Virus record (IMG/VR): IMGVR_UViG_3300045825_000178
Coordinates: 1-45,515 of that record
Direction: 5' to 3' (one strand)
Length of the DNA stretch: 45,515 bases
DNA from: a virus
Shown piece by piece: positions 3,174 through 37,787 of the stretch (positions within the stretch are counted from its first letter, which is position 1; every line of letters begins with the position of its first letter). The notes beneath the pieces are model-generated. The model made no database searches and was not told where the DNA came from. It was given only the letters and a program-made list of their open reading frames with translations. The position numbers and the translations under genes were made by a program.

Positions 3174-5235
3174 TTCGCTCAAACTGACAAATTTCCAACA
3201 ACATCGTGCACTTGAGGTTAACTTCACTAGCGGACTTAACGTACTAAGAGGCGCTAACGAGGCTGGAAAGAGTGCCACATTTAGTGCCATTGCTTACGCC
3301 TACTACGGTGCACGGGCCTTGCCGCTTTCTTTGGAAGACACAGTAACGTGGGGTGAGTCGGTAAACACGCTCAAAGTAGAGCACAGCTTCACGCACAACG
3401 GCAACGATTATATCATCACCCGTAAAAAGAGTGGTGCTGAGTTGCTTGGACCTGATAGCTTACGTGTATCAGGCCACTCAGAGGTCACAAGTTACATGGA
3501 AGCTCTATTTAACTGCAATATGGCAACGGCTGTAGCCACCATGATTGCAGGACAGGGCCAGCTAAAAGAATCTCTGGACGGTAGTGCAGTCTCGTTGATT
3601 GAGAGACTGTCGAATATGGGCTTGATTGACGAACTTGTAGATCGAGTTCAAACACGGCTACCTAGCGGCAACACCAAGATTTTTGAGTCGCAGCTGGAGG
3701 CTCTGCCGATTGTTGATGTCCCTGTTGGCGACTTTGGTGCGCTAGAGTCGGTCGTAACAGCTGCTAAACAGGTTGAGTTTGCGGCTTTTGATGCGGCTGA
3801 TGCTGCAAATGTTGCGTATGAGCGTGCCAAAGTAGAAGCTGAACGAGCTACCTTGAGGATTAATAGCGCAAAGGAAATTACTATACGCAGGAAGATGCTG
3901 AGTAATCAGTTGACAGCCGCACAGGAAAGTGCGGTAGTACAGGCACCAGTAACTGATGAAACATCGACTATGGAGGCACTGACGGCAGCTTTAGTTAAGC
4001 AGAACTCTCAGGTAGTCGTTGCAACCAAGTGGAAGATGTTCGCAGAGCTTCCAATCGTAGAGTCGTACCTTGACAGGCCTGCGGTAGAGGCCGATGTACT
4101 CTCTATTGAGTCAAGCATCACTGCTTGCATGGCTGATGTGCGTAATGCAGAACTTGCACGCGCAACTGCTTTAGCCAAGGTCATCACGCAGTCAGCGTGC
4201 GGCTTGTGTGGTAAAGACCTTACAGATGTCCCTGAAGTAGCGGCTGTGAATGCCGCAGCACAGGCAGAGGCTTTAGCTCTCAGCGAAAAAATAGCAGACT
4301 TCAAGGCGCAACGAGTTATCCTTGACAGAGATTACGGCCACCTGAAGACTCTGTATGCTGCTGACCACGCACTAGCGCTGAAGATAGCGCAACTTGTTAC
4401 CTATGTAGATGTTGACAACGCTTACATACCGTCAAAGGTTACGTGGAAAGGTCCAACAGCCGTACAAGAGCTTGACACTAATGACTACGTTAAGCGAATT
4501 GACGCGCTACGCAAGCATCAAGCCAAGGTTGCACTGCACGACTCACTAACAACTACGGCATTGGTGACAGCAGAGCATTTAAAGCAGACTATAGCAGAAC
4601 TACCCACACTGGAAGCGGACCCGGCTGATGCGCTGGCAGCGCCCGCCGCCGCCGCCGCGCTGGTTGAAGCGAGGGCTGCAACCGTTCGGCTGCACACCGC
4701 CAAGGCTACCACAGCCGCCGCAATTGCCGCGCTGGCTAGTGCAGTGCAGGCACACAATTATGCGCTGGAAAGGCACGCTGCAGGCCTTGCTAAGCGGGCA
4801 GAGTTGATCGCCACGCTGGCAGAGTATGGCGACAATAACAGGCTTATCAAGAAACTCAGAGATGCAAGGCCCGTAGTGGCCAAGAAACTTTGGGGTACTG
4901 TGCTTGCTGCCGTGTCAACCTACTTTAGCATGGTGCGAGGCACACCTTCAGTAGTCACCCGAGATGACTCTACATTTCTGGTGGATGGCAAGTCTGTCAA
5001 GGCCTATAGCGGCTCTACCAAGGATGCGCTTGGGTTGGCCATTAGGATGACGTTACAGAAAACGTTCTTAGGGAGTCTCAATACCATGCTGGTCGATGAG
5101 CCTGCAGCTGCAGCTGATGATGTCAGGGAGACAGCAATGCTTGGTATGCTAGCTTCTTGTGGCTACGAACAGGTAGTGCTTGTCACTCACTCGGACCTAG
5201 CTGATTCGTTCGCTGCGAACATTATACGTATCTAA
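3166..5235 (+). CDS. SbcC/Rad50-like ATPase, recombination nuclease partner
   Basis: Protein of 689 residues with SMC/Rad50 layout. The N-terminal half of the ATPase has Walker A GANEAGKS at residues 29-36. Long Ala, Glu and Lys-rich coiled coils flank a CGLC motif at 345-348 that resembles the zinc hook joining Rad50 dimers. The C-terminal half has Walker B (MLVDEP) near residue 643 followed by VLVTHSD. It is shorter than bacterial SbcC (about 1,000 residues) and close to phage versions such as T4 gp46. The ATG at 3166 overlaps the SbcD-like stop; a TTG 12 nt upstream is less likely. The stretch around 4620-4800 is richer in GCC and CTG codons than its surroundings and encodes an Ala-rich coil. 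The stop overlaps the stop of the convergent Rz gene, with no terminator between. Confidence 0.88.
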   Translation: MLNSLKLTNFQQHRALEVNFTSGLNVLRGANEAGKSATFSAIAYAYYGARALPLSLEDTVTWGESVNTLKVEHSFTHNGNDYIITRKKSGAELLGPDSLRVSGHSEVTSYMEALFNCNMATAVATMIAGQGQLKESLDGSAVSLIERLSNMGLIDELVDRVQTRLPSGNTKIFESQLEALPIVDVPVGDFGALESVVTAAKQVEFAAFDAADAANVAYERAKVEAERATLRINSAKEITIRRKMLSNQLTAAQESAVVQAPVTDETSTMEALTAALVKQNSQVVVATKWKMFAELPIVESYLDRPAVEADVLSIESSITACMADVRNAELARATALAKVITQSACGLCGKDLTDVPEVAAVNAAAQAEALALSEKIADFKAQRVILDRDYGHLKTLYAADHALALKIAQLVTYVDVDNAYIPSKVTWKGPTAVQELDTNDYVKRIDALRKHQAKVALHDSLTTTALVTAEHLKQTIAELPTLEADPADALAAPAAAAALVEARAATVRLHTAKATTAAAIAALASAVQAHNYALERHAAGLAKRAELIATLAEYGDNNRLIKKLRDARPVVAKKLWGTVLAAVSTYFSMVRGTPSVVTRDDSTFLVDGKSVKAYSGSTKDALGLAIRMTLQKTFLGSLNTMLVDEPAAAADDVRETAMLGMLASCGYEQVVLVTHSDLADSFAANIIRI

Positions 5236-5747
5236 CGTAGCTCGCAGACAAGCTTAGGGTTGTTAACATAGTTGTACAGGATGCCGTAGTCTATTTTGAG
5301 ACTGTCTGCATCCCCTGCTAGTCGGAAAAGATTTCCGTTAATCTTTTCTGGAAGCTGTACGATGGTGGTGCTTGTGTCACTGGTGGAGCCTGCCGCTCTG
5401 CCTTTGGCGTTACCACAACCTTGCCCACTTCCCGTGGTGGTGTACTGCAAGCGGTGAGTAGTAGCATAGTTACGCAGGCTGGCAGTGTTTTCAGCTTGAA
5501 GTTGTTCACGTTGTTTCCCCAATGCTTCTATCGTATCTTTAAGTTTACCTCTTGCAGTAGTAGCTTCGTCCTGTGCAGTAAGCAGGAGTGCAGCAGCTTC
5601 AGCTTTTTGCTTGTCAAGCTTCTCTACCCAAATAGCGCGTTCTGCATCAGCACCTACACCTTGTTCGTGACTACTCCAAGAAAAGTACCCTGCTATTAGT
5701 GCCGCTAATAGGACACCATAAGCTAGCAATTTATAGGGCAACGTCAT
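5232..5747 (-). CDS. Rz: Rz-like inner-membrane spanin (i-spanin)
   Basis: Protein of 171 residues. It has one N-terminal transmembrane segment (LLAYGVLLAALIAGYFSW, residues 7-24), then a long Gln, Glu and Ala-rich periplasmic coiled coil from about 40 to 95, and the tail NPKLVCELR typical of Rz proteins. It anchors in the inner membrane and with Rz1 links the two membranes to destroy the outer membrane in the last step of lysis. It starts 4 nt inside the end of the endolysin gene (ATGA). A complete Rz1 frame is embedded in it. Its stop overlaps that of the SbcC-like gene on the other strand, so two operons meet tail to tail with no spacer. Confidence 0.9.
   Translation of the reverse strand: MTLPYKLLAYGVLLAALIAGYFSWSSHEQGVGADAERAIWVEKLDKQKAEAAALLLTAQDEATTARGKLKDTIEALGKQREQLQAENTASLRNYATTHRLQYTTTGSGQGCGNAKGRAAGSTSDTSTTIVQLPEKINGNLFRLAGDADSLKIDYGILYNYVNNPKLVCELR
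5318..5509 (-). CDS. Rz1: Rz1-like outer-membrane lipoprotein (o-spanin), embedded in Rz
   Basis: A 63-residue frame lies wholly inside Rz in a different reading frame. It has a lipoprotein signal peptide (MNNFKLKTLPACVTMLLLTAC) with lipobox LTAC-S, so Cys21 would be lipidated. A short Pro-rich mature part follows (TPPREVGK, QAPPVTQAPPS), as in lambda Rz1. It is the outer-membrane partner of the Rz protein. An embedded Rz1 is one of the known arrangements (lambda Rz/Rz1). Lipobox, Pro-rich mature part and position all agree, so the call is firm despite the small size. Confidence 0.88.
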   Translation of the reverse strand: MNNFKLKTLPACVTMLLLTACSTPPREVGKVVVTPKAERQAPPVTQAPPSYSFQKRLTEIFSD

Positions 5748-6208
5748 ACAGGCTTGTTAAAAAGGTTCTTCTCTGCTGCACGGCGAGTAACAAGTCCTGA
5801 AAGCCTTTTACCACCACCGTAAATCCACTTGCCGAACTCAAGTGCTGCACCGATGTAGTCGCCTTTGTTAAGTTTCTTGAGTAGTGTGCTTGTACGCAGG
5901 TTGGTTGCACCAGCATTGTATGCGAAGTCGGTCAATGCGTCGTATTGATTCTGGTTAAGTGGTACAGTGACATAGCGATTAACTGCATTCTCATATTCAC
6001 CAAGCGTAGCAAGCACCATCAGTGCTGCCGTAGCCTCAGAAATTGGTGCATCCTCCATAGTCACTCGTCTGCCGTCAGGGTATCGAGTAGAGCCATAACC
6101 AATAGTAGGTACACCGGCTGGACATCTATAAGGTACTGCGCTAAAGCCTTCTGACAACTTGACAAGTTTTACTGCGTTCTGCGAGGCTTTCAAACTTATG
6201 CTCTCCAC
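5744..6208 (-). CDS. Endolysin, GH24 lysozyme (muramidase)
   Basis: Protein of 154 residues that cleaves the glycan strands of peptidoglycan at lysis. The catalytic triad pattern of phage GH24 lysozymes is present: Glu20 in SEGF, Cys29 where T4 has Asp, and Thr35 in VPTIGYG (E-x8-C-x5-T). The Cys variant is known from other GH24 phage endolysins. The later conserved segment QYDALTDFAYNAG is also present. No signal peptide or SAR segment is visible, so it should need a holin to cross the membrane. The start is GTG at 6208; no in-frame ATG lies near the family start. It overlaps the end of the small membrane gene upstream by 13 nt and the Rz start downstream by 4 nt. Confidence 0.93.
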   Translation of the reverse strand: MESISLKASQNAVKLVKLSEGFSAVPYRCPAGVPTIGYGSTRYPDGRRVTMEDAPISEATAALMVLATLGEYENAVNRYVTVPLNQNQYDALTDFAYNAGATNLRTSTLLKKLNKGDYIGAALEFGKWIYGGGKRLSGLVTRRAAEKNLFNKPV

Positions 6209-6372
6209 AATTCACTGAATAGCATACTGAATGTAAACAATACACTGATAACAACTGCTGCTATCTTGAGTATCTCTTTCCACGGCTCCGGTATATCAAG
6301 CTTGTAAATGAGCAAAAACACTGCACCGAAGATCACAGCATACACAAGTAGCGTGAGTAATATATCAGGCAT
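6196..6372 (-). CDS. Small membrane protein with two transmembrane segments, possible second holin or antiholin
   Basis: A 58-residue frame in the gap between holin and endolysin. It begins MPDILLTLLVYAVIFGAVFL and is followed by a short loop (YKLDIPEPWKE). A second hydrophobic stretch (ILKIAAVVISVLFTFSMLF) then leads to the tail SELWRA. The ATG shares one base with the stop of the putative holin gene (TAATG) and the stop lies 13 nt inside the endolysin gene, so the whole cassette is read as coupled frames. Two membrane segments in a short protein between holin and endolysin fit a class II holin or an antiholin. I do not recognise the family; the role rests on position and topology. Confidence 0.72.
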   Translation of the reverse strand: MPDILLTLLVYAVIFGAVFLLIYKLDIPEPWKEILKIAAVVISVLFTFSMLFSELWRA

Positions 6373-6731
6373 TACGCTGCAGCTAGCACTACAGGAGGTG
6401 CAGTGGGTGTGGTAACCACAATTTGAGGCTTGATAGCTGCAATGGTAGCTGGTACATCTATAGGTGCGATAGTCGGAGTTGGCCCTACTGTATTATCTGC
6501 TATAACAATCCCTGCTGTAATAGCAATAACTTCCCTATGCTTAGCTTTAATGTCGAGGTAATACTGCTCAGCAATAGCCCATAGAACAGGGATTAGCACC
6601 ATAAGGCCACCAATAAACTCAGTTAAAAGATCGTCGGACATAAAGCCTCGTACTGCACCTGTAGCTACAAGCATCGCCCTAATAACGGAGATAAGCGCCA
6701 GAATTGTTGGGTTTGTCATTGTGTTGTTCAT
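6372..6731 (-). CDS. Putative holin (Pam3-gp28-like)
   Basis: Protein of 119 residues. The N-terminal half has a moderately hydrophobic helix (ALISVIRAMLVATGAVRGF), a short linker SDDLLTEF and a stronger helix (IGGLMVLIPVLWAIAEQYY). This order, gain of Gly-rich helix, acidic loop and Trp-containing second helix, resembles the small holin family named after cyanophage Pam3 gp28. The C-terminal half (about 60-119) is a Pro, Ala and Val-rich tail unusual for a holin. It lies directly upstream of the small membrane protein and endolysin. The ATG overlaps the stop of the GH12-like gene by 4 nt. The holin role is inferred from topology and position. Confidence 0.65.
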   Translation of the reverse strand: MNNTMTNPTILALISVIRAMLVATGAVRGFMSDDLLTEFIGGLMVLIPVLWAIAEQYYLDIKAKHREVIAITAGIVIADNTVGPTPTIAPIDVPATIAAIKPQIVVTTPTAPPVVLAAA

Positions 6732-7969
6732 AGTTTCACCTTATAGTCATAAACAATTATGTCACCAGTGCCGTCAATCGGCTCAACGCCCAACTCAACT
6801 GCTACTAAGTACTCTTTACCAGTTGCCCATGGAGTGCCCTTAGCATCCTTTCTGGTTGTCATATAGTTAATAAGCTCACCGATGTCAATTTCCGCTGCAG
6901 TGATCGGTAGCTTATCTGGCAAAAATGCAACCATTTTCCAGCCAGTGCCCCATGCACCCCATTGTCCTCCGAAAGTGTAATCAAAGACACCATCTGGTTT
7001 TTTAGTGCAGTAAACATGGTATAGCCGACCACCTATAGTGGCGTCGTGGTCATACCAAGTAGGATTACGGCCCTTGTTATGCGCGCCATAGTTGCCCCAA
7101 TTTTGCAATGGGATCATGATTTCATGCGTAAACGGTGCCGAACTGAAGCCGCGTGTCTGCCCCGGTGTGCTTTGCAACCAGATGTCAAAAACAAGTTGTC
7201 CCTGTCCTGTTGGTGGCACAACGTTAGATACAGCAAATTTACATTTGACAGGTGGTAGCGGTAACTGCAGTGGCATGAATGTGCCGGGTGTATGGCCAGT
7301 AGGTGCGACGCTTTGAACAACACCTTGAGGTGTAATTACTTGCATACCGTCGATTAGTGCATCACTGCTATAGTAACCCGGCTGTCTACCACCAATAATA
7401 CTTGAGTAGCTTTTTACCTCTGTACCTACTGGTGCTGGTATAGGCCATCTCCACTTTAAGCGAAATGCTACTTCACCATTTGGCCCCTGCGTTGGAAGAA
7501 CACCTATCAAAGACTCAAACTGATTTGCAGCAGGGCCTCTAGTAATGCCGTTAGCGCCCCACGGGTTTTCCAGAACAAAAGAGCCGCTAGCGGGGTTACC
7601 GAGCAGGGTAATGTATGAACTTCTGTCTGTAACTGGCATCTGAGCAGCTGTAGGGGCACTAGCAGCAGGAACAGGAATAGGAACAGGCACCGGAAGAGGG
7701 ACCGTAGTAGGGATGGTTACAGGGATAGGCAAGTGCACTTCCCAATAGTAGGTACTTACCGTTGGGTCATACCCCGGATTTGCATACTTGGCCCGATAGA
7801 GCTTGCCATCAGAGAAAGCCACAATAGTTCCAGCTGCATACTGCTTGTTTTGCACCCATGACTGGTATAAAGGCGGTGGTGTAGGTGGTGGGGCATTTGG
7901 TATGCTTTCCACATATTCAACTGCAACCGCCAGCGCTGCTTGCGCTTCTGGTTTTGTTGGACTAGGCAT
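6728..7969 (-). CDS. GH12-like endoglucanase or xyloglucanase with N-terminal chitin-binding-like module
   Basis: Protein of 413 residues. Residues about 35-80 (YQSWVQNKQYAAGTIVAFSD, then YRAK and a final YYW) look like a type 5/12 chitin-binding module, which also occurs in cellulose and chitin enzymes. A Pro/Val linker of about 30 residues (PVPVPIPVP) follows. The rest resembles glycoside hydrolase family 12: NPWG near the start of the domain, HEIMIPL with Glu283 at the nucleophile position, and ELGVEPIDGTG with Glu396 at the acid/base position, where GH12 has a G-x-E-P motif. A role in cutting a beta-glucan-type surface polysaccharide, as a virion depolymerase or released enzyme, is inference. 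The start is ATG 7969 with GAAGGAG six nt upstream. A holin gene follows with 4-nt overlap. Confidence 0.68.
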   Translation of the reverse strand: MPSPTKPEAQAALAVAVEYVESIPNAPPPTPPPLYQSWVQNKQYAAGTIVAFSDGKLYRAKYANPGYDPTVSTYYWEVHLPIPVTIPTTVPLPVPVPIPVPAASAPTAAQMPVTDRSSYITLLGNPASGSFVLENPWGANGITRGPAANQFESLIGVLPTQGPNGEVAFRLKWRWPIPAPVGTEVKSYSSIIGGRQPGYYSSDALIDGMQVITPQGVVQSVAPTGHTPGTFMPLQLPLPPVKCKFAVSNVVPPTGQGQLVFDIWLQSTPGQTRGFSSAPFTHEIMIPLQNWGNYGAHNKGRNPTWYDHDATIGGRLYHVYCTKKPDGVFDYTFGGQWGAWGTGWKMVAFLPDKLPITAAEIDIGELINYMTTRKDAKGTPWATGKEYLVAVELGVEPIDGTGDIIVYDYKVKL

Positions 7970-8038
7970 CAAAAACTCCTTCAAAAGCTATAAAGTGCCT
8001 ATAGCCGTAGCTACAGGCACGTTTCCGACAGTTAGCGC

Positions 8039-8290
8039 TTAGGGATTCGTTGGCGCAGCCGGTGGTGTCAGTGCATCAGCAGCCTCGATGCGTGTAGCGA
8101 GTGCAGCCACTTGCGCATCAATTTGGTCAAGCAGGGCTTGGTCTTCTGCGGTGATAGCACCCGACGTTGCTTGCAGTTCGGCGACCTTGGCACTGAGTGT
8201 GTCAACATCAGCCGATAGGCCTGTCAATGCTGCGTCGATGCGTGCGCTGTACTCAGCTTGTTTCGTGGCAAAATCAGAAATTGCGGTCAT
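8039..8290 (-). CDS. Small coiled-coil protein of unknown function
   Basis: Protein of 83 residues, almost entirely helical and heptad-like (YSARIDAALTGLSADVDTLS, AKVAELQ, EDQALLDQIDAQVAALATRI), with a Pro/Ala tail. It lies between two accessory structural-type genes of the late block, and similar short coiled-coil proteins often sit near phage fibre genes. I start it at ATG 8290, which has AGGA seven nt upstream and where the helical protein begins. The same frame is open to ATG 8395, which has its own AAAGGA and would add a 35-residue leader; that longer form is possible. No specific role can be assigned. Confidence 0.6.
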   Translation of the reverse strand: MTAISDFATKQAEYSARIDAALTGLSADVDTLSAKVAELQATSGAITAEDQALLDQIDAQVAALATRIEAADALTPPAAPTNP

Positions 8291-8449
8291 GATATGTCCT
8301 AGGTAGTGGAAAACACGCGAAAAATTTCGCTTGGTGATGGTGGCATCTTTACTTTTTGTGGCAAAGAATGCCAATATTGTTTCTGAAAAAATCATTTTTA
8401 TCCTTTAGGTGGGTCGTTCATAAAGCTCCTTTTGTGGTCTACGGGGAAA

Positions 8450-9181
8450 CTATTTATTAGGCTGAATTACAACTGGTGCCTGTGTCTGAGGTGTCGGCTG
8501 TACATAGATAATAGGCGGGGATGCAGATAAAGATGGAGTTCCTACTGGCCCTGAAGCCCCTTTAAAGTCTATAATCATAGCTGCAGCAGCTACCACTACC
8601 GCTAACACTGCTACTATAATGCCAATATTTGATCTGTTATCATCCTTGTTATCATTACCACCTGCTATTTTACCGCTCATAAGCAGAAGCTGACCATTCA
8701 AAATTACTTGCTGGCCCTTCACATCATCAATCTTGTCATTCAGATTACTATTGCTAGTTGCTATATTTATGCTGATCTGATCAATCTGCTTTGTCGTTCC
8801 GCTTTCACTTTTTGAAATAGCCAGTGAACTCGATTTATTTTGCTCGCCCACAGCCTCTTTAGCAGCTTGCAAAGCCGCATCCACCGCAACTTTTGAATCT
8901 TTTGCTGTCTGTTCTGCTCTGGTATCCCTCTCTACGAACTGCGTCTGAATGCTGCGGAACTTTTCGTCCTGCAGTTGCTGTAAATGATCCACTTGTGTTC
9001 GTATAACTACTGCGCGTTCTGCTAGAGAGTCCTGCAACATCGCTATCAGGCGATCATTACCGGCTATCCGCATGTCCAGCACTTCGCGCAGCGCATGAAC
9101 TTCACGCAGCACCATATCCGTTGTCAGAGGTGTTGGGTCTGGTATTGGCAGCATATTACCAGAGGACTTTGGGAAGGTCAT
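8450..9181 (-). CDS. Coiled-coil protein with C-terminal membrane segment, unknown function
   Basis: Protein of 243 residues. Residues about 20-180 are helical and coiled-coil rich (REVHALREVLDMRIAGNDRL, LQQLQDEKFRSIQTQF, LNDKIDDVKGQQ). A single hydrophobic segment follows at about 186-207 (IGIIVAVLAVVVAAAAMIIDF), then a Pro/Gln-rich tail (YVQPTPQTQAPVVIQP). Proteins with this layout recur near the fibre and lysis genes of phages but I cannot name a role. The start at 9181 has no convincing Shine-Dalgarno sequence; ATG 9154 (MLPIPDP) is an alternative. A membrane anchor argues against a purely virion-structural role. Confidence 0.68.
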   Translation of the reverse strand: MTFPKSSGNMLPIPDPTPLTTDMVLREVHALREVLDMRIAGNDRLIAMLQDSLAERAVVIRTQVDHLQQLQDEKFRSIQTQFVERDTRAEQTAKDSKVAVDAALQAAKEAVGEQNKSSSLAISKSESGTTKQIDQISINIATSNSNLNDKIDDVKGQQVILNGQLLLMSGKIAGGNDNKDDNRSNIGIIVAVLAVVVAAAAMIIDFKGASGPVGTPSLSASPPIIYVQPTPQTQAPVVIQPNK

Positions 9182-9202: not shown

Positions 9203-9685
9203 TTATATCCTACTAGCAAAAAATTCTTTTGTGATGTCTTTACCGATTGTCAAGCAGATAGCTGCAAAGTGATGAGGCCCAAACGTAGCAGACGCTTTAA
9301 GGAATGGATGACCTACCCACTGATTACAAAATGCCTTGTCAGCGTCAGGAGAGCCGGGAAGGCACGTTGCGAGAGCACCACGGCTATCGTATGGCATCCC
9401 AACTGTCATAGAAAGATAATCCTGTGATAACTCTACGTCCCATTGAGGTACATCAACCATAATCCAATGTAGCGGGTTTAGCGTAGTGATCTTAGAGCGG
9501 ACACCCTTATCCATATACGATGCACTAGCAATTGTCACAGAGCCATCACTAAACTCTTCGTGAATAGCTTCTACATGCACAACGTTAGAGTAAGGCCCCT
9601 TCTGGAACTTCCTTGTCAGAATCGCACTAAGCTTAACAAGAAAGGCTGAGTCAGCGTGATTACCTATAAATAAAGCAACTCTCAT
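9203..9685 (-). CDS. Permuted papain-fold (YiiX/NlpC-P60-like) cysteine hydrolase, putative
   Basis: Protein of 160 residues. The layout fits circularly permuted NlpC/P60-type enzymes: a His early in SNVVHVEAI (residues 34-42), a middle strand region with GMPYD, and a Cys late in AFCNQWVG (about residue 119). In the permuted family His precedes Cys, as here. Members are amidases or proteases acting on peptidoglycan peptides or lipids. It is the second papain-fold-like gene in the late block; the tail-tip NlpC/P60 gene at 23064 has the normal order. The start overlaps the end of the upstream gene by 4 nt. The catalytic assignment is by motif only, so the function is tentative. Confidence 0.5.
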   Translation of the reverse strand: MRVALFIGNHADSAFLVKLSAILTRKFQKGPYSNVVHVEAIHEEFSDGSVTIASASYMDKGVRSKITTLNPLHWIMVDVPQWDVELSQDYLSMTVGMPYDSRGALATCLPGSPDADKAFCNQWVGHPFLKASATFGPHHFAAICLTIGKDITKEFFASRI

Positions 9686-10141: not shown

Positions 10142-13100
10142 TCATTCCTTTTTGGCGGTTATCTGGACCCATGCAGCAGAGCCGGGAGCTACTGCAAAGC
10201 GTATGGTTTCCCTAAATCCGTCAAAGTTTCTAACAAAATCCTTGGTTGGCCCTTCACGCTTAGATGCACCAGCCGATAGCACCTCTGTCGCCGTCCATCC
10301 TGCAGGCGTCTGAAATGTTGACTGACCAATAGCCACCAGATTTGCAGTAGCCGTTGCATTAGCACTCATGGTATAGATAGCACCATTGATGTTTGTAATT
10401 ATGGTGTTGACAGGAATACCAACACCTGTAATACCCATTCCGATGTAAGGCGTACCTATAATAGAGGCCACTACTGTCAACTGATTGCTCAGGTTCGTCG
10501 TAGTGGCCGTAAAGCCCACTGCGTCAAAATCAAACACCGTAAGCGTCTTACTGGCCTTGGCTGCTGCCTCCGCTCTACGTACCAGTTCATCTCGCAATCC
10601 ATAGGCCGGGACCGTAACATCAACACCGGGGTTAGCAGTAATACGTGATAGTAACTTAACGCCTGATTGCGCTCTAACATTGCTGAAGTTACCAGAGCTA
10701 GGTGTTCCCGTAGCAGTACGTATCAAGCCTGTGAAAGAAGACTCATTTCCTGCCTGAATTGCTACCCACTTGTCCAACTGTTCATCGTAAGCAAGGTCTG
10801 CAACAGCTGTGGCCGCAGGTAAGGTAATCTGCGCACCGTCACGGAACATTTGCTTTTCTTGCTCATACATGAACACCGCCTGTTCGGGAGTAGGTAGTGT
10901 TGCACCGACTTTGAGCAGGGCTATGCTGCCGGGGAATGGTGCGTCTAGGGTGCGGCTGTTGCCGATGGTCAGCGTGGCAGCGGCGTTGTTCAGCGTCAGT
11001 AGCGGCGCACCAACAGTGCTTGCCACCTCAAGCCCGTTGACGCTGATTGCCAGTCGGCCAGCGCTGTAGTTCAAGCGTGCCTTGGTAGGTGTGCCGGTGT
11101 TGTAGGCTGCTGTCGTGGTGACCGTGCGGGTGGTTGTGCCGTCATAGAGCGTAGCAACTAATTTGGCATTTCCATCCATACCCAACATGAAAGACGGTCC
11201 GGTAGCTGCGCTGCGATCCACTAAAGCGACAGTACCGTTATAGGCCGTCGTTAAGCCGGGCCTGTAAGGCTGTAGTAGGCCCGGTGAACACATGGCACCC
11301 CAAACGTATATGCCAGAAACTCCGTCACCAGTATACAGCGGTGTGATGGCGTTTAAAAGTATGCGAATCTCAAATTCACGAACTGCTGCAAGGCTGATCA
11401 CGGAGACTGAACACCTATAAAAGCCGTTCAAATCAGCCGTGATTGTCCCGCCACCTGATACAGCAGTTCCTGACGACAGATCAAATATGGCTGAGAAACC
11501 TGTCCCACCTGATTGAAAACTATTAATAGCGAAAAACTGTCTTCCGGCAGGTTTGGCATAGACAGAGAATGTATATAAGCCTGCTACGAACATAGGAAGT
11601 TGAAATACCCTATTCACAATAGCTGCCGATGTACCTTCAGAAAGTTTGTCAGCAGTCGTGCTACCGTCTGGTGCAACCGTCGCATTGGCGGTTACTGTAA
11701 TGTTGGATTTAATCCAAACCGCATTGTCAAACTGCTCTGGAAACAGCATAAGACTGCTAGGGCCATAGCCAGTGGTGTTAACCCAAACACTCACACTCAA
11801 ATCATTCGTACCTACATCCAGATCAGCGCTGTATGTCTCTCTAGCATAGTTGGCAGGACTAAAACCGCTGTACGCAACAAGCTGACTCCCGACACCGACT
11901 GCACTTTTAACTAGCGTTCCGAAAATGTTTGCGCCTGCTGCTTTGTAGGAGCGGTCTGCGATGACTTCTTTGACGCTAACGCTGTCTACCTGATATATGC
12001 CGAGTACAGTGCCCGCCTTAAAGTAGCTAATCCATAGTTGAGCGCTGGTAGCTACAATAACTTTGGAGTAAGTTGAAGTGTTGCTCACTGACGGCACTGT
12101 GAAGTATTCAGCACCACCAGCAGCTGTCCCAACTGTCACCGTTGCCGGTGAACCGCTCTCCGATAGTCCTACGAAAGTGATGTTGTATGCTTTTCCCACC
12201 GTCACATTAACTTGTTGCCGAATGCGTGCGATGCCAGCTATGTCCACAGGATTAAGTGTCACCACCCCTGCTGAAACAGTGGCTGTTGCACTTCCTGTAT
12301 TTATAAGTGTCCACCCCGCCGTATCAACATCAAACGTCCCATTAGTAACCAACTCAGTCGCGCTAATACTCTCAACAATAGTATTGGCTAGGTAGCAGCG
12401 GCGGATGTCACCTGTCATGTAGCCGGTGTTGTACCTATCTGCAATAGTAGCCTGCAACCGAGCCGCAACGCTCTGAATGCCTGTACGCACAAAGGTAAGC
12501 TCAGGTAGTGCCGGGCTACTAGACCCAAGACCTATAACAGATTTACTTGCCGCTAGTCTGAAGACCCATCCATCACGAATTGGAATACCTCCAAGGAATC
12601 CAGTTGGTGACGCAATTACGCCAGCAGATATTGAAGCATTGCTGTAAAAATAAGCAGAGCCTATACTGGCGTTGCGACTTACCCATAACCCACTAGGGCT
12701 AAATACAGTGTAAGCTACCGATGTAGGGTTAATAGCGCTACTTATAATCGTGCCATCATGCCGAATAATGCTAGTTCCGCCTTGTGTCCCTACAGCGATA
12801 GTAGGAACTTGCAAGCCGGTAGCGATGTCAATAGGGGCGTCAGGTAGCACGGTCATGGCGACGGCGTTTACATCACGCGAGGCGATAGCTGCTGGAAAAT
12901 AGTTAAGTGTCGCTATCATTCCCGCCGTGGAGTTTCTCAGAGACACCACCTGAATGTTGTAGCCGGTAGTTGACCCGTTGTTGCTTACCGTGGTGTCTTT
13001 GGCAAAATTGATCTGCACAAAAAGACCAAATGAGACATTCGACGCGCCAACGCACATCAAGCCGTTAATAGCGGCCACCGAACCAATAGTTCCTGAAAAT

Positions 13101-14752
13101 ATCGCAGCCTGCACACTTGTGCCAATGGTCTTGAACCGCATCCACATCGGACAGCCCTTCTCTGTCAGGTCATATATAGTGATACTACCGGCTTCGGCCA
13201 CAATAGCCGAAAGCCGTGGAAACTTGGCCTTGTTGCCACGGAAGACCTCAACTAGCGTTCCGTAGGTAGCGCCCAGTTTGTAGAACTTGCCGTCTGCACT
13301 GGACTGGTAGTAGCTACCAGCTTGGGTGCTGTAGGGGACGTAGGGAGTGGCTAGAGTGGTGATCTGCTTACAGGAAACAGCAGAGAAAAAAGCCGTATTG
13401 CCGATCACAGCGCCGAAACTTGTAAGGGAGATATAAGTCGTCGTCCCTGTCGCGACAAAAACAAACTGTAGTGCGGTATTGGTAGTCGTTGGCGCTGCGA
13501 CTGACCCTATATTAAAAGCCCCCGCAGTTGTGCCTACCCACAGGCGGGCATCAGTGGCGGTGCCTTTTCTGGCGGTTACATTGATAGAGTAAGCCTGCCC
13601 GATAACTGTAGTAATGGCTTGTGAGGCGGAGCCGTTCGCGGCTGTTCCCGCTGTGACTGTGATTTCACTAACAGTTGATGCCAGCGTTGCGCCGTTTGTT
13701 GCAGTCCACCCCACCGTCCCACTATCAAACCCACCATTACTAACAAGCTCAGGCGATGCTGAGTAGGTAGATGGTAGAGCGCCGACCCTGTTTAACTTCG
13801 GTGCATAGATTTCAATAGTGGCTGGTGACCCTGCATCTTTACGCACAGCTATAGAGTCGGAAGTCGCTGTTGGAGTTTGTATCAGTTCAAACTTTTGCCA
13901 AATTGTCGTGATGTTGGCCGTCAAGTTAGCGGCGGCATAGTAAGGGTTGCCAATAATCAAGGTGCCGGGCGTGTCAGACCGCAGCCATACTGAACGAATA
14001 TTCGGCTGTCCTGTAGGCACAACTACACTGCCATTACTGTTAGAAAAGCCTGCATTTACCGCAGCGCTCGACCAGTCTATCTTCTGTGCGGACAAACCCC
14101 CAATAGGGTCACGCACATTGCCGATGACTGATACACCTACACCTTTTATCCATGCTGCATTGTCAATTTGCTCCGCATACGGCAGCAGGTTATCGCCACG
14201 CGCTAGCAATTCCGAAGCAAACCCACCTGTCAACCATGCACCACACAAAGGCTCATTCATCCATGACGTATGTTGCATACGCTCCACCCATGCACCACCA
14301 TCGCTATCCCTACTGGTGTCATAGATAAATAGCGCTGTGACAGGATTCGGCGAACGATGCAGTGCCGTGCTGATAGCGCTCAGGTCTTGCTGCAATACCG
14401 AGCTAGCAGATACTGCTGCAGTTTGAGCAAGCTGTGTCTGTGCCGCAGCCGTAATCAGCGCTGCATTCATGGCATTCGTTGTGCCATAGATAGCCAGTGC
14501 CTGTGAAGCGTTGTTTAAAGCTTGCTCAGCACTAGCAGAAGCTAAACCTCTGTCAGTACTGGCAAAAGCTGCGGAAATAAGAGCGGCAGCTGCACTGCGA
14601 GCAGCATCACCAGCTGACGCATTAGTAGCGAAAACTTCGGCAACCCTTGCGATTATGTCGGTCTTAACATCACTAACTGCTGCAAGAAGCGCAGTAGTGT
14701 TGGTGTCAAGGACATTTACTTGTGCCGTAAGGCTTTCAATTGCTGTAGGCAT
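10142..14752 (-). CDS. Large tail fibre or receptor-binding protein with several carbohydrate-binding-like modules
   Basis: Protein of 1,536 residues. The N-terminal 110 or so residues are helical and Ala-rich, as in virion-attachment regions. Beta-rich modules follow. A module beginning AEQIDNAAWIK lies at about 187-330 and recurs as PEQFDNAVWIK at about 1000-1170. Two CBM4/9-like modules start LVSNGGFD (about 333) and LVTNGTFD (about 798). A LamG-like domain is apparently split: its first half (LDVGTNDLSVSVWVN) is at about 971-992 and its second half (GRLAISVNGLEVAS, LTIGNSR) at about 1179-1297. This composition suggests recognition of a host surface glycan. The C-terminal end is not S74-type. 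Translation is coupled to the upstream gene (TAATG). Ends of the modules are estimates by eye. Confidence 0.85.
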   Translation of the reverse strand: MPTAIESLTAQVNVLDTNTTALLAAVSDVKTDIIARVAEVFATNASAGDAARSAAAALISAAFASTDRGLASASAEQALNNASQALAIYGTTNAMNAALITAAAQTQLAQTAAVSASSVLQQDLSAISTALHRSPNPVTALFIYDTSRDSDGGAWVERMQHTSWMNEPLCGAWLTGGFASELLARGDNLLPYAEQIDNAAWIKGVGVSVIGNVRDPIGGLSAQKIDWSSAAVNAGFSNSNGSVVVPTGQPNIRSVWLRSDTPGTLIIGNPYYAAANLTANITTIWQKFELIQTPTATSDSIAVRKDAGSPATIEIYAPKLNRVGALPSTYSASPELVSNGGFDSGTVGWTATNGATLASTVSEITVTAGTAANGSASQAITTVIGQAYSINVTARKGTATDARLWVGTTAGAFNIGSVAAPTTTNTALQFVFVATGTTTYISLTSFGAVIGNTAFFSAVSCKQITTLATPYVPYSTQAGSYYQSSADGKFYKLGATYGTLVEVFRGNKAKFPRLSAIVAEAGSITIYDLTEKGCPMWMRFKTIGTSVQAAIFSGTIGSVAAINGLMCVGASNVSFGLFVQINFAKDTTVSNNGSTTGYNIQVVSLRNSTAGMIATLNYFPAAIASRDVNAVAMTVLPDAPIDIATGLQVPTIAVGTQGGTSIIRHDGTIISSAINPTSVAYTVFSPSGLWVSRNASIGSAYFYSNASISAGVIASPTGFLGGIPIRDGWVFRLAASKSVIGLGSSSPALPELTFVRTGIQSVAARLQATIADRYNTGYMTGDIRRCYLANTIVESISATELVTNGTFDVDTAGWTLINTGSATATVSAGVVTLNPVDIAGIARIRQQVNVTVGKAYNITFVGLSESGSPATVTVGTAAGGAEYFTVPSVSNTSTYSKVIVATSAQLWISYFKAGTVLGIYQVDSVSVKEVIADRSYKAAGANIFGTLVKSAVGVGSQLVAYSGFSPANYARETYSADLDVGTNDLSVSVWVNTTGYGPSSLMLFPEQFDNAVWIKSNITVTANATVAPDGSTTADKLSEGTSAAIVNRVFQLPMFVAGLYTFSVYAKPAGRQFFAINSFQSGGTGFSAIFDLSSGTAVSGGGTITADLNGFYRCSVSVISLAAVREFEIRILLNAITPLYTGDGVSGIYVWGAMCSPGLLQPYRPGLTTAYNGTVALVDRSAATGPSFMLGMDGNAKLVATLYDGTTTRTVTTTAAYNTGTPTKARLNYSAGRLAISVNGLEVASTVGAPLLTLNNAAATLTIGNSRTLDAPFPGSIALLKVGATLPTPEQAVFMYEQEKQMFRDGAQITLPAATAVADLAYDEQLDKWVAIQAGNESSFTGLIRTATGTPSSGNFSNVRAQSGVKLLSRITANPGVDVTVPAYGLRDELVRRAEAAAKASKTLTVFDFDAVGFTATTTNLSNQLTVVASIIGTPYIGMGITGVGIPVNTIITNINGAIYTMSANATATANLVAIGQSTFQTPAGWTATEVLSAGASKREGPTKDFVRNFDGFRETIRFAVAPGSAAWVQITAKKE

Positions 14753-36248: not shown

Positions 36249-36851
36249 TTACTTGGCGCGTGGAAGCTTGATAGCTATTTCTAGCTCACGATCAGTCATG
36301 GTCGGAGCCTTAGCGTCCGCTTCTGGCTTACCTAAGGAGGTAGCCGCAACGCCACCAACCTTAAATTTGGCTCTAAACAAGCCCGATAACCGGGTATGCT
36401 CAGCAAGTACTTCTGCTGGTGTCATCGCTGCAGCCGCTTCTGCGGTAGTACCAAAATGTAATCCCATCGTGCGAACAGAGGCGCGAGCAATGTCTGTCAT
36501 CGCTGCAGCCTGCGTAGCAGCCGCCGTGTTCGCTTGAACATTCGCAGCAAGGGCTGCAACTGCCGTAGCAGTCTCCACGCGAGCAGTCAGCAAGTCTTGA
36601 TTAGCAGTAGCAAGCATCCCCTTCAACAGAGCAACAGCTTCGTTTACCAGTGGTGCAACAGCTGCTACTGAAGTCGTACCACCACCGGCAGCTAGAGCTT
36701 CATCAGCTTCTCTAGCTGTTACTCTAGCAAGTTCTGCAGCAGCCGCTGCGGCTGACTCTGTAGCAATCTCTTCTTCGGTCTTTTCAGCACCAAGCTCAAC
36801 ACCGGCAGCCATCGCGGCAAGTTGTTCAGCTGAGAGGGTTTGTGTTTTCAT
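36249..36851 (-). CDS. Scaffold protein from nested in-frame start (Nu3-like)
   Basis: Same frame and stop as the protease gene, starting at ATG 36851 (protease residue 313) with AGGA seven nt upstream. The product of 200 residues begins MKTQTLSAEQLAAMAAGVEL and is helical, Ala-rich and acidic, with no protease residues. Lambda makes its scaffold Nu3 in the same way from within gene C. The ribosome binding site inside the longer gene is the main sign; the match to Nu3 is by arrangement, not by sequence. Confidence 0.78.
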   Translation of the reverse strand: MKTQTLSAEQLAAMAAGVELGAEKTEEEIATESAAAAAAELARVTAREADEALAAGGGTTSVAAVAPLVNEAVALLKGMLATANQDLLTARVETATAVAALAANVQANTAAATQAAAMTDIARASVRTMGLHFGTTAEAAAAMTPAEVLAEHTRLSGLFRAKFKVGGVAATSLGKPEADAKAPTMTDRELEIAIKLPRAK

Positions 36852-37787
36852 TGAGGTTCCTAAATGATTGGTGAGATTATCGGCCAGAAGGACAGTACCA
36901 GTCGATGCCTGTGCTTGGACATTGCTATTGTTGGTAGCACCTATGCCCCTAGACGCAGAGGCTGTCGTCTTTGCTTTTTTCATGAGCGCCATCGCTTTTT
37001 TCATGGCGTCCTCATAAGTGCCTACAGCGTCAACAAGTCCCGCTGTCTTAGCAGCCTTACCGAGAAACTCGCGGCCTTGACCAAACTTCTTGTCTGCTGT
37101 TGTAACTGCTACACCACGACCAGCCGCTACTTGAGGAAGGAAAATGTCATAGAGGTCGTTAGCCATAGTTTGCAGCGCGTCTTTAGCTTCTGCAGTCAGG
37201 GCCTCAAAAGGAGTAGCAAGCGCTTTTTCAGAGCCTGCACGAATGATAGTGGGTTTTATACCAGCCTGAGCAAGCTCTTGACTTCTATCCATGTGCACCA
37301 TTAGAATGCCAATGCTACCGACTATTGCAGTTTCAGACGCTACGGCATACTGACCTTGACTACCAAGCCAAAGTGCAGCGCTTGCCATCGCAGACCCTGT
37401 ATAGGTAACTACAGGTTTAATAGTGTCTACACGCGCAATCAACTGCGAGCATTCGTGGCAACCAGCTACCATGCCACCACCAGAGCCGATATTGAGCATG
37501 ATGGACTGCACTGCAGGGTCGGTGACAGCGGCAGCAAGTGCGTTTCTGATGTCGTTGTAGCCGATCATCCCAAAGAAGACGCCGAAGCCTGCACTGCCTT
37601 CAACAAGGGAACCTGCAATATTGATGACTCCAACGCCATTGTCAACGCTGAGAATCTGGCTAAGAACTTGGCTATCGTAGTTGAAATCAGCTTTGAAGCC
37701 AGCATCAGCCCTTGCTTTGAGCATCCCTTCAAGATACCCCTCATACGATTGCTGTGTGCCTGCCCAAAGTTGCAGTCCTGTTTTCAT
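36249..37787 (-). CDS. Capsid maturation protease, S49 (ClpP/SppA-fold), fused to scaffold
   Basis: Protein of 512 residues. Residues 1-260 form an S49 peptidase domain like lambda gpC: GVGVINIAGSL, the oxyanion region NIGSGGGMVAG, catalytic Ser136 in GSAMASAALWLGSQG, and Lys188 in AGSEKALATPFEALT as the general base. Residues from about 313 onward are Ala/Glu/Thr-rich and helical, a scaffold-type region (AAMAAGVELGAEKTEEEIAT). It cleaves the portal, scaffold or capsid inside the prohead. ATG 37787 has GAGGAA six nt upstream. A nested in-frame start at 36851 yields the free scaffold. Confidence 0.9.
   Translation of the reverse strand: MKTGLQLWAGTQQSYEGYLEGMLKARADAGFKADFNYDSQVLSQILSVDNGVGVINIAGSLVEGSAGFGVFFGMIGYNDIRNALAAAVTDPAVQSIMLNIGSGGGMVAGCHECSQLIARVDTIKPVVTYTGSAMASAALWLGSQGQYAVASETAIVGSIGILMVHMDRSQELAQAGIKPTIIRAGSEKALATPFEALTAEAKDALQTMANDLYDIFLPQVAAGRGVAVTTADKKFGQGREFLGKAAKTAGLVDAVGTYEDAMKKAMALMKKAKTTASASRGIGATNNSNVQAQASTGTVLLADNLTNHLGTSMKTQTLSAEQLAAMAAGVELGAEKTEEEIATESAAAAAAELARVTAREADEALAAGGGTTSVAAVAPLVNEAVALLKGMLATANQDLLTARVETATAVAALAANVQANTAAATQAAAMTDIARASVRTMGLHFGTTAEAAAAMTPAEVLAEHTRLSGLFRAKFKVGGVAATSLGKPEADAKAPTMTDRELEIAIKLPRAK

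Follow-up and report, generated by a model that had tools for sequence, protein, structure and literature searches.

A phage protein encoded beside a holin, with a remote GH12 domain and a CBM5/12-like module, as a candidate matrix depolymerase

A 413-residue protein encoded in the window (the whole 45,515-nt stretch of viral DNA analysed here, IMG/VR record IMGVR_UViG_3300045825_000178) was confirmed by sequence comparison to carry a remote glycoside hydrolase family 12 (GH12) domain with both catalytic glutamates. The gene lies between the tail-fibre and lysis genes, and on balance we consider it somewhat probable that it is a late gene for a phage endo-beta-1,4-glucanase-type matrix depolymerase, on a deep GH12 branch, that would be released at lysis. 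The open reading frame runs on the minus strand from an ATG at 7969 to a stop at 6728, where the preliminary description had placed it. We rejected an alternative TTG start at 7984, since an AAGGAG ribosome-binding site stands just 5' of the ATG at 7969 and the relatives' proteins start at the same residue (MPDPTK...) in the alignment. From its N-terminus the protein has a conserved segment (the first 20 residues are conserved among the phage homologues and include MPxPTKxQAQAxLxVA), a CBM5/12-like module, a Pro-rich linker and the remote GH12 domain, and judged by eye it has no evident signal peptide. The features of the region, all on the minus strand, were as follows.

8450 to 9181, minus strand: 243-residue protein with a hydrophobic segment (homologue 45% identical over 225 residues)
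8039 to 8395, minus strand: 118-residue coiled-coil-like protein, upstream of the GH12 gene, with homologues in contigs G302 and G301
6728 to 7969, minus strand: 413-residue protein (P0001) with CBM5/12-like module, linker and GH12 domain; open reading frame with homologues about 55% identical in other phages
7730 to 7867, minus strand: CBM5/12-like module, about residues 35-80 (Pfam CBM_5_12; similarity to a Streptomyces GH19 protein)
7631 to 7729, minus strand: Pro/Val-rich linker, about residues 81-113, Pro-rich in all homologues
6731 to 7630, minus strand: GH12 catalytic domain, about residues 114-413 (hhalign, Pfam scores over the cut-off in two homologues, fold search)
7121 to 7123, minus strand: codon for Glu283 in HEIMIPL, the predicted nucleophile, which aligns with Glu120 of CelB2 (an invariant position)
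6782 to 6784, minus strand: codon for Glu396 in ELGVEP, the predicted acid/base, which aligns with Glu203 of CelB2 (an invariant position)
6372 to 6731, minus strand: Pam3 gp28-type holin (PF23987, 26.3 bits against a cut-off of 27), its start overlapping the GH12 stop by 4 bp
6196 to 6372, minus strand: small hydrophobic protein of 58 residues, from its position a possible second holin or antiholin
5744 to 6208, minus strand: endolysin, a phage lysozyme (PF00959, 144.9 bits)
5232 to 5747, minus strand: Rz-like spanin (phrog_2466, E-value 1.8e-7)
5318 to 5509, minus strand: lipoprotein-like Rz1 open reading frame, in another frame inside the Rz-like gene

Enzymes of GH12 have a beta-jelly roll fold (clan GH-C) and, as retaining enzymes, hydrolyse beta-1,4-glucan, xyloglucan or mixed-linkage glucan. 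GH12 (PF01670) was the sole catalytic Pfam match of the window protein, at 20.4 bits, below the cut-off of 27, and a phmmer search of the PDB with the window protein retrieved no GH12; two full-length phage homologues exceeded the Pfam cut-off (28.8 and 29.2 bits), with matches that span almost all of the model. The window protein scored 25.4 bits against an HMM made from six GH12 enzymes of solved structure, compared to a maximum of 10.7 among 5,000 shuffles of the domain. As GH12 seed sequences we used T. reesei Cel12A (1h8v), R. marinus Cel12A (1h0b) and S. lividans CelB2 (1nlr), with whole-length PDB matches; in profile comparison the window sequence alone matched the solved GH12 seeds with an E-value of 2.4e-6, and the phage family matched solved GH12 by hhalign with an E-value of 3.8e-12 over 203 columns, an alignment that covers the N-terminal N-x-W-G motif (within ENPWG, which begins at residue 134) and both catalytic glutamates. 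The preliminary description had read the protein as a GH12-like glycanase from Glu283, Glu396 and NPWG, and this reading stood: the numbering was exact, and the two glutamates fell on the nucleophile and acid/base positions of solved GH12s, in motifs invariant across all phage copies. One departure was noted, in that the Trp following the nucleophile motif, invariant in the aligned solved GH12s, is Pro in all phage copies. Given the score relative to the shuffles and the strong purifying selection among close homologues (see below), we regard the observation made on this open reading frame as more than chance.

Structure prediction was consistent with this at moderate confidence. AlphaFold gave a pLDDT of 33 for the GH12 domain from the single sequence; from an alignment that combined the phage homologues with bacterial GH12s it gave a pTM of 0.69 and a mean pLDDT of 58, with core parts at 80-90. 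No fold other than GH12 emerged: the 50 best PDB matches of this model were all GH12 (E-values down to 2e-10), which, because GH12s were in the model's alignment, supports the sequence evidence and is no independent proof. When the model was searched against the BFVD library of viral structures there was nothing at an E-value of 0.001 or less.

A Trp/Tyr-rich, chitin-binding-like module followed by a Pro/Val linker had also been described, and both were recovered at the positions given above. Alone, the module scored 18.6 bits against Pfam CBM_5_12 (PF02839), short of the cut-off of 26.2, and the homologues' scores were likewise under it (14.4-15.4 bits), hence we label it CBM5/12-like only. 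It is similar to a segment of a Streptomyces (S. fungicidicus) GH19 protein (55.8% over 43 residues, E-value 2e-6); identities to this GH19 protein were 55.8-62.8% over 43 residues, with a framework of W, Y and G in common. The phage module differs from known CBM5/12 in its sub-threshold Pfam score and in being joined to GH12, and we take it to be a candidate polysaccharide binder. The J-like tip protein of Pseudomonas phage vsMR contains a similar module, so such modules occur in tail proteins too.

The window belongs to a siphovirus-like phage with recognisable TerL, portal, major head, tape measure and J-like tip proteins; its TerL shares ~27% identity with the TerL proteins of phages of Caulobacter, Vibrio and Achromobacter. 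The Rz/Rz1-like pair implies a Gram-negative host, and a search for tRNA genes as a further host hint found none. Several other genes of the window were noted in passing. The 160-residue product of 9203-9685 resembles phrog_1128 (named enoyl-CoA hydratase-like in the records) and by eye appeared nearer to a YiiX/NlpC-P60 type peptidase, with H, C and H motifs. The 1536-residue fibre encoded at 10142-14752 has a head-spike fibre domain of the GTA type (NF048003, 117 bits) as well as carbohydrate-binding repeats that score under threshold (CBM_4_9, DUF642), and 36249-37787 encodes an SppA-like signal peptide peptidase amid head genes, probably the head maturation protease. A family A DNA polymerase (50-1765) had a weak secondary match to DpoZ, the aminoadenine-incorporating type (45.6 of 500 bits); we saw no sign that this phage uses aminoadenine.

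As the preliminary description had stated, the GH12 gene stands directly upstream of the holin gene, and it heads a set that continues with the Pam3-type holin, the small hydrophobic protein, the phage lysozyme and the spanins. The partner holin genes in relatives scored 52.5 and 52.9 bits against PF23987. The 4-bp overlap of GH12 stop and holin start reads ATGA in the window and in locus L118, and GTGA in L119 and L120; it is present in every complete copy found, which points to translational coupling of the two genes.

Relatives were sought by pattern scans covering 2.9 million viral contigs. Scans with the window protein or a CelB-type GH12 returned nothing beyond the 86.4-kb contig IMG/VR 3300045918_000157, a longer piece of the same phage (100% identity in an 11.2-kb comparison), and a genome scan with the window protein found no relative. 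The homologues in other phages came to light only when an actinobacterial GVE-type GH12 led the scan, with the window protein alongside it: four further contigs carried a full-length copy (~55% identity in the alignment), and a final scan added a fifth, whose homologue is truncated by the contig end. All members of the family came from three metagenomes (3300045918, 3300045825 and 3300045993), and two of the contigs, G301 and G303, are identical over 10.9 kb. Among the GH12 copies dN/dS was 0.08-0.12, which indicates that the function of the protein is kept. In a tree the phage proteins formed a deep separate GH12 branch, whose attachment point is unsure because the branches are long. In G300 and G301 the gene immediately 5' of the GH12 gene encodes a homologue of the 243-residue protein. 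Contig L091, obtained by way of a neighbouring gene, belongs to another phage and lacks the module.

In G302, a 42.7-kb contig of ~62% G+C with an integrase match, the GH12 gene and a second holin follow a first holin, an endolysin and a pair of spanin-like genes, away from tail genes. At DNA level G302 and G300 have in common only the GH12-holin pair (85% over 1.6 kb, counted from the first codon of the GH12 gene) and part of the upstream gene, whereas G302 and G301 share the pair plus some nearby segments; the pair is a 1.6-kb block common to two otherwise dissimilar phages. We tentatively raise the possibility of a mobile two-gene lysis accessory, in which a GH12 glucanase directed at the matrix and a dedicated holin, coupled to it in translation, would pass as a unit between unrelated phages and supply a lysis-timed attack on biofilm glucan beyond the ordinary holin-endolysin-spanin set, G302 having both. 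Also in G302 (L116:2814-4316 and 5528-6010), we noted two Pam3-type holin genes, one before the endolysin and one overlapping the GH12 stop, with the integrase match nearby.

In the reading we prefer, the late gene product would be a retaining endo-beta-1,4-glucanase-type enzyme linked to a polysaccharide-binding CBM5/12-like module. Lacking an evident signal peptide, it would collect in the cytoplasm, be co-translated with its holin and be set free at lysis, whereupon it may bind and cut the beta-glucan matrix round host cells (bacterial cellulose or a related glucan), allowing progeny to disperse and find further cells. Of the two routes put forward in the preliminary description for a beta-glucan depolymerase, release at lysis and carriage on the virion, the gene's surroundings speak for the first, since the GH12 gene heads the holin-lysozyme-spanin set and overlaps its Pam3-type holin. 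The points against this reading are the sub-threshold Pfam score of the window protein, the modest mean pLDDT of its model, the GH12s in that model's alignment and the change from Trp to Pro after the nucleophile motif. The main rival is a virion-borne depolymerase, fixed to the tail by its N-terminus or binding module, whose GH12 domain would clear glucan at adsorption. The tail-fibre genes that precede the GH12 gene and the vsMR tip module fit such a role, and the conserved N-terminus could be an anchor; yet the holin coupling holds in all complete copies, the G302 copy follows a complete lysis set away from the tail genes, and no PHROG tail family scored above noise, so that we rate a virion role as unlikely.

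Two further explanations were weighed. Soil phages are reported to carry other glycoside hydrolases, and typical GH12 substrates include plant or algal beta-glucans, so the gene could be an auxiliary metabolic gene whose product breaks down such glucans outside the cell and feeds the infected host or its neighbours. We judged this improbable, as no signal peptide is evident and holin coupling would allow export only with cell death, hence no gain for the infected cell. The protein might instead be derived from GH12 and no longer a glucanase, binding glucan or cutting a different polymer, for instance peptidoglycan or a glycan like chitin; the Pro beside the nucleophile, the extra inserted segments, the deep separate branch and the resemblance of the module to that of a GH19 protein could all be read in this way. 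That every phage copy keeps both catalytic glutamates and the motifs around them unchanged, under purifying selection, and that a separate lysozyme is already there for peptidoglycan, makes this very improbable in our estimation, and we continue with a matrix depolymerase released at lysis.

That GH12 is unusual in phages, as the preliminary description had remarked, held in the collections we searched (phage records, BFVD and viral contigs). A tblastn search with three sequences against 50,697 phage records found no GH12, although very distant relatives could escape such a search, and the 2.9 million viral contigs yielded only the present family and one separate, actinophage-like GH12. The latter (L112:4234-5259, contig 3300005364_000316) scored 54.4 bits against Pfam GH12, over the cut-off, and shares its contig with genes for a phage portal and head. 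It differs from the window family in having a signal-peptide-like N-terminus and no CBM5/12 match and in grouping with actinobacterial GH12s (98/95 support), and because of this grouping we regard it as a separate acquisition, which suggests two or more entries of GH12 into phages. The L112 gene adjoins one for a right-handed beta-helix protein (6532-8778). We found no report of a phage GH12 in the largely non-subscription literature that we searched; one apparent match for phage 'glycoside hydrolase family 12' turned out to be GH127. Phage cellulases are few, and those we found in the literature belong to GH5 and GH48 (phage S6, PMC9544554). The phage depolymerases would gain a family in a GH12 clade that has a binding module of its own, is joined to a holin and passes between different phages; such a clade would also suggest that some phages time a matrix-degrading enzyme with lysis. 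The proteins are directly testable for breaking cellulose-type biofilms.

Compared to solved GH12s such as Streptomyces CelB2 (1nlr), Rhodothermus Cel12A (1h0b) and the GH12 domain of Acidothermus GuxA (7mks), the phage family has the same order of motifs across the domain, those in common being N-x-W-G, (Y/F)D-I-W, E-I/L-M-I (nucleophile) and G-x-E (acid/base), and the moderate-confidence model of the window protein has GH12s as its best PDB matches. The phage proteins differ in being only ~20-27% identical to these enzymes, with EIMIP for EIMIW, in having a domain of ~300 residues with several insertions instead of ~220, and in that the window gene is phage-borne and apparently holin-coupled, with no signal peptide evident in its product. 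In Erwinia phage S6, gp095 (GH5) was shown to degrade carboxymethylcellulose and gp094 (GH48) is a predicted cellulase; cellulose is a first receptor of this phage, and the cellulase genes lie in a polymorphic region with no holin joined (PMC9544554). Like that pair, assigned to cellulose, the window protein is a phage-encoded multidomain protein predicted to be an enzyme, whereas the GH families and accessory domains are unrelated and the holin link is found only in the window family. With soluble phage depolymerases released at lysis, the likeness would be that of a free, phage-made, matrix-cutting enzyme; the enzyme families described there differ, and we liken the window protein to them by action and claim no membership. 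What appears to be new, on the sequence evidence, is a candidate type of phage polysaccharide depolymerase built on GH12, a family unseen in phages in these searches apart from the actinophage-like case, and coupled to a holin.
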